Assembly (NCBI RefSeq): GCF_009936215.1
Contig: NZ_AP019551.1
Span: 62,001-126,000 of the forward strand
Source of the DNA: Athalassotoga saccharophila
GTDB taxonomy: Bacteria > Thermotogota > Thermotogae > Mesoaciditogales > Mesoaciditogaceae
Direction of reading: 5' to 3'
DNA length: 64,000 nucleotides
Of this stretch, positions 47,373 to 55,875 are shown in pieces. The notes below the pieces were generated by a model. That model was not told the DNA's origin and made no database searches. It saw only the letters and a program-made list of their open reading frames with translations. Made by a program: the position numbers and the translations under genes. How positions within the stretch are numbered: position 1 is the stretch's first letter; each line of letters begins with the position of its first letter.

Positions 47373-48659
47373 ATGAGAAAATTCATTTTGATTTCAACTG
47401 GCATTGCTTTTTTACTCACAGATCTTTTCGCTGACAATTTGGACATCGTCAAAGGATTAATTCAGGACTTCGTGTCTGGAAACTTCACAATTGCGGAATC
47501 TCTTTTTACAGATCAAATGAAGCAGGCATTGCCTCCTTCGAAGATGAAAGAAGTGTGGAATCAGATCGAGAATCAATTTGGACAATTTGAATCAATAGAA
47601 GGAATAAAGATCTCGCAAAGTGGAGAGTACACGGTCTTTGATCTATTCTCAAAATTTCAAAAATCCTATCTTGATATCCTTGTAACTGTCGACAAAAATT
47701 CAAAGGTAGCCGGCCTTTTCTTCAGACCAGCCTCAAGATTTTACGAGATTCCACCTTACGCGATTACTTCCAAATTTGAAATAAAAAAGATAGAAATAGG
47801 AAATGAATACAAGGTGCCGGCCGAACTTACAATACCAAATGGCAAGGGTCCATTTCCAGCCGTTATCTTAATAGCCGGATCTGGCCCCGAAGATATGAAT
47901 GAATCGATAGGACCCAACAGACCATTTGAAGATATAGCGTATGGTCTCTCGTCGAATGGAATAGTCGTTTTAAGATTCGACAAAAGCACTTACGTTTATG
48001 CGAAAGAATTTGAAAGTGGACAGATCAAGACAGATCTCGAAAATGAATATTTCAAAGACGCTTTAGATGGAATAGAATTTTTGAAATCTCAAAGTTATGT
48101 GAAGAACGTATTCATCCTTGGCCACAGCGAGGGCGGATACCTTGATCCAGCCATTGCGAAAATGTCAGACAAGGCATCGGGAATAATCTTGCTTGCAGCG
48201 CCGGCAAGAAATTTGGAAGATGTAATGATAGATCAGTTTGATTACCTTATCTCTATAACTAAAGATTCAACCGAGACACAACAGATGAAAGTCATGATAT
48301 CACAACTTGAAGAAATAAAAGCACATAAACTCAAAGATTCTACCATCGTTATGGGGGCGCCTGCGAGTTATTACTACGAAGTGGACAGTTATAACCCGAT
48401 CGATATTCTCAAAACCTTGAAAATGCCTGTTCTTGTAATGCAGGGGGGAAAGGATTACCAGGTAACAAAGAAGGATTACGACATTTTCAAAGAGAACTTT
48501 GGATCAGATGACAACTTCACATTCAAATGGTTTGAGGATCTCGATCATATTTTCATGAAATGGGAAGGAATTCCATCTCCGGATCAATACCTTGTTTCAG
48601 GTCATGTAAGCGATGACGTCATAAAAGAGATCGTCAAATGGATAAACTCAAACTCATGA
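47373..48659 (+). CDS. Secreted alpha/beta hydrolase with DUF3887 domain
   Basis: A 428-residue exported esterase-like protein. A signal peptide (about residues 1-20, ending LLTDLFA-D) has no lipobox cysteine. A DUF3887 domain (about 22-120) precedes the alpha/beta hydrolase domain. The latter has the oxyanion strand ILIAGSGPEDMNE, the nucleophile elbow GHSEGG, an acid in VMQGGKDYQV and the catalytic His in DLDHIF. The substrate is unknown; relatives are annotated as acetyl-esterase or peptidase-like. AAAGGAG precedes the ATG at 47373. Its end overlaps the FGGY kinase. Confidence 0.9.
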   Translation: MRKFILISTGIAFLLTDLFADNLDIVKGLIQDFVSGNFTIAESLFTDQMKQALPPSKMKEVWNQIENQFGQFESIEGIKISQSGEYTVFDLFSKFQKSYLDILVTVDKNSKVAGLFFRPASRFYEIPPYAITSKFEIKKIEIGNEYKVPAELTIPNGKGPFPAVILIAGSGPEDMNESIGPNRPFEDIAYGLSSNGIVVLRFDKSTYVYAKEFESGQIKTDLENEYFKDALDGIEFLKSQSYVKNVFILGHSEGGYLDPAIAKMSDKASGIILLAAPARNLEDVMIDQFDYLISITKDSTETQQMKVMISQLEEIKAHKLKDSTIVMGAPASYYYEVDSYNPIDILKTLKMPVLVMQGGKDYQVTKKDYDIFKENFGSDDNFTFKWFEDLDHIFMKWEGIPSPDQYLVSGHVSDDVIKEIVKWINSNS

Positions 48660-50056
48660 GATGCTTAATAGGAGTTGACATTGGGACAACAAGGACAAAG
48701 GTCGTCGCCTACGATTTGGAAGGCCGTAGAATAGCGGATGCCGAATCACGATACACGGTAAGGATACCTCAAAAAGGATGGGCCGAGGAGGATCCTGATC
48801 TTATATTTCGTGCCATTTTGAAAAACTTAAAGAAGGTCATCGAAATTGTCGGAAATCCCGAAGGCATCTCTTTCAGTTGTGCAATGCATAGCCTCATACC
48901 CATTGATGATAGAGGAGAGAAATTATCAAACGCGATCATATGGATGGACAACAGAGGATCGAAAATCTCTGCGAATCTAAAGAACACGCAAATGGGAATG
49001 GAGATATACAAAAGAACTGGAACTCCGATTCATCCGATGTCTCCTCTTTTAAAGATTCTCTACATGAGAGAAAGAGAAAGGGAAACCTTCGAAAAAACAT
49101 TCAAATTCATATCGTTAAAGGAGTACATATTTCACAAATTTTTTGGATCCTATTTGGTTGATCAATCCATCGCGTCTTCGACAGGGCTTTTTAACATACG
49201 GCACAGGAAATGGGACATGGACGTACTTGATTTTGCAGGCATAAGAGAAGATCAACTTTCATACGTTGTGCCGACAAATTACATTTTGAAAGGCAATTTA
49301 TACGCAAAAAAGATCGGGATAGACCCGCAAATTCCATTTGTGATAGGAGGCGCGGATGGACCTCTTTCGAATCTTGGATCTAACGCAATAGACCCGGGAA
49401 TTGCCGCTTTGAATGCCGGCACAAGTGGGGCATTGAGAGTTGTATCTTCCTCTCCATTTATCGATCCCAAGATGAGACTTTTTACCTACATTTTGGATGA
49501 AAAAAACTTTGTAATAGGTGGAGCAGTTAACAACGTTGGAGTGGCCTTGGACTGGTTTGTCAGGACTTTTGGTGGCAAGATCGAGAATCTCGAACGGATG
49601 GCGGAGAAAATTCCTGCCGGATCCAACGGTCTTATCTTTTTGCCGCACATAACCGGCGAGAGAACTCCTTACTGGAACTCTGAAATGAATGGAAGTTTTC
49701 TTGGAATAAGAATAGATCACAAAAGATCAGATTTTTTCAGGGCTGTGCTTGAAGGAATAGCCTTCAGCCTTTACGAGATCAAAGAAACTATGGAAGAGAA
49801 TGGAATCGAGATAAAAGAGGTTCATCTGAGCGGAGGAATGTCGTCGTCAAAATTGTTCATGGAAATACTTGGGAATCTTTTCAAAAAAATCTATATCTTC
49901 AAAGAGGATTCCTCAACCTTTGGCGCATTTCTTATCGGTGCAAAAGCGCTCGGGATAGATCAAAAAGATCTTTTCAGATACGAAGAATTCGTACCTGAAA
50001 AGGCAGAAGATTATTCGCGATTTTTTCAAATTTACAAAAAAAACCATCAAAACTAA
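48638..50056 (+). CDS. FGGY-family carbohydrate kinase, probably gluconokinase
   Basis: A 472-residue ATP-dependent sugar kinase of the FGGY family. It has the phosphate-1 loop IGVDIGTTRTKVV, the substrate-side GWAEEDPDL and WMDNRG segments, GGADGPLSNLGSNAIDPG, the ATP-site NAGTSGALRV, and AVNNVGVALDWF. The pattern around GADGPLSNLG and TSGALRV is closest to gluconate kinases. Two starts are possible: ATG at 48638, used here, and ATG at 48656, which overlaps the hydrolase stop as ATGA; neither has a good ribosome site. Substrate is inferred. Confidence 0.88.
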   Translation: MDKLKLMRCLIGVDIGTTRTKVVAYDLEGRRIADAESRYTVRIPQKGWAEEDPDLIFRAILKNLKKVIEIVGNPEGISFSCAMHSLIPIDDRGEKLSNAIIWMDNRGSKISANLKNTQMGMEIYKRTGTPIHPMSPLLKILYMRERERETFEKTFKFISLKEYIFHKFFGSYLVDQSIASSTGLFNIRHRKWDMDVLDFAGIREDQLSYVVPTNYILKGNLYAKKIGIDPQIPFVIGGADGPLSNLGSNAIDPGIAALNAGTSGALRVVSSSPFIDPKMRLFTYILDEKNFVIGGAVNNVGVALDWFVRTFGGKIENLERMAEKIPAGSNGLIFLPHITGERTPYWNSEMNGSFLGIRIDHKRSDFFRAVLEGIAFSLYEIKETMEENGIEIKEVHLSGGMSSSKLFMEILGNLFKKIYIFKEDSSTFGAFLIGAKALGIDQKDLFRYEEFVPEKAEDYSRFFQIYKKNHQN

Positions 50057-55690: not shown

Positions 55691-55716
55691 AGTTCTTCCT
55701 CCTTAAATTTAATTTG

Positions 55717-55736
55717 AAATCACCCGAAGGTGATTT
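55717..55736 (-). promoter_or_regulatory. TTCG-loop hairpin in the riboswitch expression platform
   Basis: The minus-strand RNA forms an 8-bp stem AAATCACC/GGTGATTT closed by a TTCG loop, five bases after the end of the aptamer and about 20 before the AAGGAGG ribosome site. It lacks a proper U-tract (CAAATTAAATTT follows), so whether it terminates transcription, protects or exposes the ribosome site, or acts otherwise is not clear. Confidence 0.6.
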
Positions 55737-55740
55737 ATAT

Positions 55741-55808
55741 CTTTGTAGTCAGACGATTAAGGTCGTCTGGTAGAAACTTTCGAGCCCAATTCCCGAAATT
55801 ATACAAAG
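55741..55808 (-). promoter_or_regulatory. Purine riboswitch aptamer, guanine class
   Basis: All conserved parts of the purine aptamer are present in order: P1 CTTTGTA with TACAAAG, the J1/2 TATAAT, a P2 stem with GG in loop 2, J2/3 TTTCTACC, P3 AGACGA/TCGTCT with loop CCTTAA offering the two C bases for the loop-loop contact, and J3/1 GACTAC. The specificity base (position 74 in the usual numbering) is C, which pairs guanine or hypoxanthine. It controls the two BMP proteins, ATPase and permeases, supporting purine nucleoside import. Confidence 0.96.
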
Positions 55809-55846
55809 GTCTTATTCGACATTCGTTGGAGGAATTATTTTTGAAG

Positions 55847-55875
55847 ATTATATCACTTTATTTTGAAAAAATCAA
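55847..55875 (-). promoter_or_regulatory. Promoter of the riboswitch-controlled importer operon
   Basis: On the minus strand TTGATT, 17 bases, TATAAT. The -10 ends next to the stop codon of the upstream acyltransferase-fusion gene (55853), and the -35 lies inside its coding region. The predicted start leaves about 30 bases before the aptamer. Confidence 0.85.

Follow-up and report, generated by a model that had tools for sequence, protein, structure and literature searches.

The importer operon of Athalassotoga saccharophila NAS-01 that encodes two BMP-type substrate-binding proteins is headed by a guanine-I riboswitch aptamer, and we consider it very probable that this aptamer exerts OFF control over an importer of purine nucleobases. 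The strain has a closed genome with two plasmids and was cultivated at 55 C and pH 6 (PMC7163026); the locus lies within a stretch of 64 kb, which was analyzed as a whole and is called the window here. The riboswitch itself is of an ordinary, well-known kind, and it is the wiring to this importer, together with a probable block at the level of translation, that is slightly unusual. The literature search brought up no paper that places a guanine riboswitch before a BMP importer of the Thermotogae, although regulon databases, which lay outside this search, may hold such an annotation.

The first-pass annotation had described a complete guanine-class aptamer, without giving its strand, and had proposed a covariance-model search as a check. 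This search (cmscan, whole window) returned a significant, full-length match to the Purine family RF00167 on the minus strand (75.3 bits, E = 1.4e-11, gathering score 37), whose core coincides with the annotated aptamer and carries a C at the specificity base. No second Rfam match above the gathering score was found in the window, and a permissive scan of it added nothing further. On the minus strand, P1 is formed by CCTTTGTA/TACAAAGA (55809-55802/55747-55740), P2 by TTTCGGG/CTCGAAA around the loop AATTGGG, and P3 by CAGACGA/TCGTCTG around CCTTAA; J2/3 reads TTTCTACC in DNA letters (UUUCUACC in RNA), has no insertion and contains U51. All pocket bases are thus canonical for the guanine-I class, and an aptamer of this sequence would be expected to bind guanine. 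Two features of the loops depart from the usual form: L3 is one base short, and L2 has a U where other Thermotogota aptamers have an A, a combination that among 53 Thermotogota matches is confined to this switch and the orthologous one in Mesoaciditoga. Kissing loops of 7 nt each are usual for guanine riboswitches but do not define them. Because the GG in L2 and the CC in L3 are kept, so that two G-C loop-loop pairs can still form, these changes are a deviation and not a disqualification, although they could weaken the aptamer. Variant classes described for other ligands have a different J2/3 (PMC9295807), and the adenine, xanthine-II and guanine-II classes were ruled out, as both J2/3 and J3/1 are of the guanine-I type.

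Features of the riboswitch leader and the importer operon of A. saccharophila; all positions are those of the window
Feature	Position	Strand	Basis or remark
Putative promoter TTGATT-17-TATAAT	55847..55875	minus	10/12 consensus matches, TG before -10
Putative anti-SD UUCCUCC, 5' leader upstream of aptamer	55828..55834	minus	perfect 7-nt complement of GGAGGAA (55702-55696)
Purine (guanine-class) riboswitch aptamer, RF00167	55726..55826 (core 55808-55741)	minus	cmscan
L3 loop CCUUAA	55757..55762	minus	6 nt, usual 7; alignment
Specificity base C (position 74, xpt numbering)	55748	minus	cmscan alignment, GACUAC in J3/1
Hairpin AAAUCACC-UUCG-GGUGAUUU	55717..55736	minus	directly after P1, no U-tract; kept in Mesoaciditoga
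Shine-Dalgarno AAGGAGGAA of BMP-1	55696..55704	minus	5 bases before ATG 55690
BMP-1, substrate-binding, 351 aa	54635..55690	minus	AtzT/3S99 type, pocket W,S,F,E,W,E,D
BMP-2, substrate-binding, 357 aa	53555..54628	minus	AtzT/3S99 type, pocket W,S,F,E,W,H,D as in 3S99
ABC ATPase, 506 aa	52030..53550	minus	two ABC domains
Permease 1, 355 aa	50979..52046	minus	BPD_transp_2
Permease 2, 309 aa	50053..50982	minus	BPD_transp_2

The gene content reported downstream of the aptamer was likewise confirmed, with 50 nt between the end of the core and the start codon of BMP-1, two proteins of the Bmp family PF02608 (200 and 205 bits), and the ATPase and both permeases following in this order with short gaps or overlaps. 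The putative promoter, assigned by consensus match in a region where chance alone should give 1.5 promoter-like sites in the scan, lies where the acyltransferase gene upstream ends, and it overlaps the stop codon of that gene (ending at 55853); it is kept in the Mesoaciditoga orthologue and would place the transcription start near 55840. At the other end of the operon, an FGGY kinase gene on the plus strand (48638-50056) overlaps the last permease gene tail to tail by 4 bases (50053-50056).

That this complete importer is purine-related, as had been proposed, is well supported, yet the riboswitch cannot serve as direct evidence for its cargo, because it shows what regulates the operon and not what is carried. 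Nor is the importer otherwise generic: sequence alone groups both BMPs with the guanine-binding AtzT (6pi5; 47% identity, E about 1e-100) and with Brucella 3s99, in which adenine was modelled (43-46% identity, E 1e-95 and 1e-86). AtzT was purified with guanine bound and has a Kd of 0.11 uM for guanine and 2.5 uM for adenine (PMC6834077). To map the pocket, the printed AtzT chain was aligned with an offset of 5, at which every residue named in that paper falls on the right letter. Of the AtzT residues reported to contact guanine, both BMPs keep the stacking aromatic (Trp for Tyr45), Ser97, Phe98 with its backbone site, Glu165 and Trp194. Asn220 is replaced by Asp in both proteins, as in 3s99, while Asn218 of AtzT corresponds to His in BMP-2 and 3s99 and to Glu in BMP-1; BMP-2 has the 3s99 residues at all nine mapped positions. 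Among 127 homologues, nearly all have these residue states. In contrast to AtzT and 3s99, the A. saccharophila proteins are two tandem paralogues, and they are not linked to atrazine. The NCBIfam 'putative B6' transporter names were rejected for the importer, with all scores far below the cut-offs.

The first-pass annotation had also allowed for nucleosides as cargo, in which case guanine would be a regulatory signal only and the importer would be of the PnrA or Nup type. PF02608 is indeed named after PnrA, and nucleoside transporters under the control of guanine riboswitches are known, for instance Bacillus subtilis yxjA (PMC9756952). However, while the matches of the BMPs to AtzT and 3s99 range from E 1e-86 to 1e-101, PnrA (2fqw) is matched by BMP-2 at E 4e-4 only and by BMP-1 not at all. 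The genome's other two BMPs are PnrA/BmpD-like (2fqw, E 1e-39 to 1e-41) and neither has a guanine riboswitch, as the only two purine riboswitch matches of the genome lie elsewhere. One of these two other BMPs belongs to a nucleoside-type importer operon (L184:524-7613, minus strand), which encodes a BMP, an ATPase, two permeases, an HD protein, DeoC, an FTCD-like protein and Xpt and likewise lacks a guanine riboswitch. AtzT-type importers, moreover, share operons with xpt in other genomes. We therefore regard nucleosides as an improbable cargo. Since the BMPs are of the AtzT/3s99 type and separate PnrA-type BMPs without riboswitch are present in the same genome, the importer likely carries purine nucleobases, guanine among them and probably also hypoxanthine, xanthine or adenine.

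As to the mode of regulation, plentiful cytoplasmic guanine would bind the aptamer and turn the importer down, and the importer would be made when guanine is scarce. We infer both this direction and a control that probably, if by a modest margin of confidence, acts on translation. In this model the transcript carries, at its 5' end, an anti-SD that would pair with the Shine-Dalgarno sequence of BMP-1 and block translation, and the folded aptamer between the two would bring them together, shortening the loop closed by the aSD:SD helix. Complementarity of 7 bp was found in 213 of 20000 dinucleotide-shuffled leaders, which corresponds to a chance of about 1%. The anti-SD is kept in Mesoaciditoga though neighbouring leader bases and lengths differ, and in both species its pairing with the SD is part of the predicted minimum-energy structure at 37 and at 60 C, worth 2.4-4.1 kcal/mol. 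Two congeners, whose leaders have no aptamer, lack the complementarity. Support for the anti-SD comes from only two closely related species, and an invariant SD permits no covariation. In the folding model, the mean unpaired probability of the A. saccharophila SD is 0.24 at 37 C and 0.28 at 60 C, in each case both with and without P1; the model ignores loop length and ligand and predicts the SD to be paired whether or not P1 forms, and the switching step is therefore one that we infer. The full layout, in which the anti-SD stands 5' of the aptamer, the aSD:SD helix encloses both the aptamer and a former terminator hairpin, and L2 and L3 have changed as well, is offered tentatively. If true, it would represent the re-tasking of a guanine riboswitch from purine synthesis to import after loss of the synthesis genes.

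Guanine riboswitches usually act by termination, and a transcriptional OFF switch, in which guanine stabilises P1 and the hairpin behind it acts as terminator, would be the conventional reading of this leader. The second copy in the genome (L047) and those of relatives have clear terminators, whose 5' arm can pair with the 3' strand of P1, and the hairpin at 55736-55717 resembles a terminator stem. But this hairpin has no U-tract, being followed directly by UUUCAAAUUAAAUUU, a scan of the minus strand shows no terminator-like site, and its 5' arm shows no complementarity to the P1 3' strand, which leaves nothing to switch the hairpin. Because the U-tract and the pairing with P1 are both missing, the logic of a terminator is missing too, and control by termination at this hairpin, which does not overlap P1, was judged unlikely. 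Far less probable still is an ON switch, in which L3 (CCUUAA) would pair with the SD bases UUAAGG without ligand and guanine-driven L2-L3 kissing would free them. The complementarity of the unusual L3 to the SD is perfect over 6 nt, yet the pairing costs 9-12 kcal/mol over the ensemble, CCUUAAA loops also occur in relatives with terminators, and induction of an importer by the very ligand that it brings in would run counter to what the other members of the class do. Two further pairings were rejected: an anti-P1 helix in the leader (ACGAA/UUUGU), predicted at 37 C for A. saccharophila, is neither kept in Mesoaciditoga nor favoured at 60 C, and a pairing between the anti-SD and L2/P2 (AAUUCC/GGAAUU), made possible by the U of L2, is 7-11 kcal/mol worse than the free ensemble in the full leader and appears in short nascent transcripts only. 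The preferred reading thus remains a translational one.

Compared with the guanine-I riboswitches of B. subtilis (xpt-pbuX, yxjA), the switch described here is alike in its three-way junction, pocket bases, C at position 74, L2-L3 kissing bases and its site upstream of a purine uptake operon; it differs in controlling an AtzT-type ABC importer, in its loops, and in lacking a downstream terminator, with a probably translational mode of action. Among 80 GTDB loci with AtzT-type BMPs, RF00167 was found upstream in six, which belong to Mesoaciditoga ARK-11, four Clostridia-group genomes and one Bacillota genome. The layout in Mesoaciditoga is the same as in A. saccharophila. In the four Clostridia-group loci (L113, L123, L143, L153) a guanine riboswitch also heads the operon of an AtzT-type BMP importer, with the order xpt, BMP, ATPase, permease; xpt is thus the first gene there, whereas in A. 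saccharophila it lies elsewhere, beside the nucleoside-type importer. The riboswitch stands directly before the BMP gene in the Bacillota locus (L137) and in a Thermotogota genome (G012), the latter with a clear terminator. The association between riboswitch and AtzT-type importer thus recurs in unrelated bacteria, having been acquired or retained in several lineages, and is not one of chance neighbours here. Two congeners, whose BMP-1 is 80-83% identical, have the same operon without the aptamer, which indicates that the link is recent or was lost in these two.

Two side observations were made in this survey. Mesoaciditoga sp. ARK-11 contains a further purine-aptamer-like match (L052:2622-2723, 67.9 bits) with an A in place of C or U at the specificity base and a terminator, close downstream of which there is no gene in sense orientation; it is probably a decaying copy. 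In one Thermotogota family (f7; L078-L085), the AtzT-type BMP domain occurs behind about 300 N-terminal residues in open frames of 627-660 aa, and this fusion protein is possibly a cytoplasmic regulator that senses purines through its BMP domain.

The second guanine riboswitch of A. saccharophila (L047:7192-10601, minus strand, at about 1.580-1.584 Mb of the same chromosome; 84.6 bits) is of the same class and also heads an importer, but differs from the BMP-1 leader in its classic terminator/antiterminator arrangement and in the type of transporter. Downstream lies an ECF transporter composed of a fused double ATPase, a CbiQ-like T component and, in the S position, a 214-aa hydrophobic protein. 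The S-position protein has no match in Pfam, NCBIfam or PDB; of 103 Thermotogota genomes, 3 carry its gene, all of them in this genus, and in all 3 a guanine riboswitch immediately precedes it. On these grounds the transporter is a candidate ECF purine importer, a function for which our literature search found no precedent.

The physiological context of both switches is set by the purine genes of the genus. In all four of its genomes, one of which is closed, purC is absent, purD has nothing above cut-off, and purE has no genuine match, only a homologue of 58 bits and about 250 aa, the size of LarB, which is also present in several purE-bearing relatives. A normal purH is absent from the four genomes as well, the only candidate being a divergent paralogue of 440 aa that scores far below the NCBIfam cut-off. 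All four genes were found in control genomes and in some members of the family. The salvage genes hpt, apt and xpt are present, and no NCS2 permease was found. De novo purine synthesis therefore seems to be beyond the genus; this gene content reads most naturally as purine auxotrophy, and these bacteria should depend on purine import. In relatives with pur genes, the same aptamer precedes purC, purE, guaA, NCS2 permeases or xpt, with gene names taken from the N-terminal residues of the open frames and, for purC and purE, confirmed by Pfam position.

In summary, our analysis adds to the aptamer a cargo narrowed to nucleobases, the context of a purine auxotroph, and possibly an unusual expression platform. 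A likely cargo and a regulator can thereby be assigned to an importer family that Pfam names after nucleoside receptors and that matches the NCBIfam 'putative B6' models only below their cut-offs, and nucleobase-type and nucleoside-type BMP importers can be distinguished within one genome. As purine synthesis has apparently been lost, the switch would govern the supply of purines and not their synthesis. With guanine riboswitches on pur genes in purine-makers and on importers in a lineage without pur genes, A. saccharophila would thus provide a small but clear case of riboswitch re-tasking.
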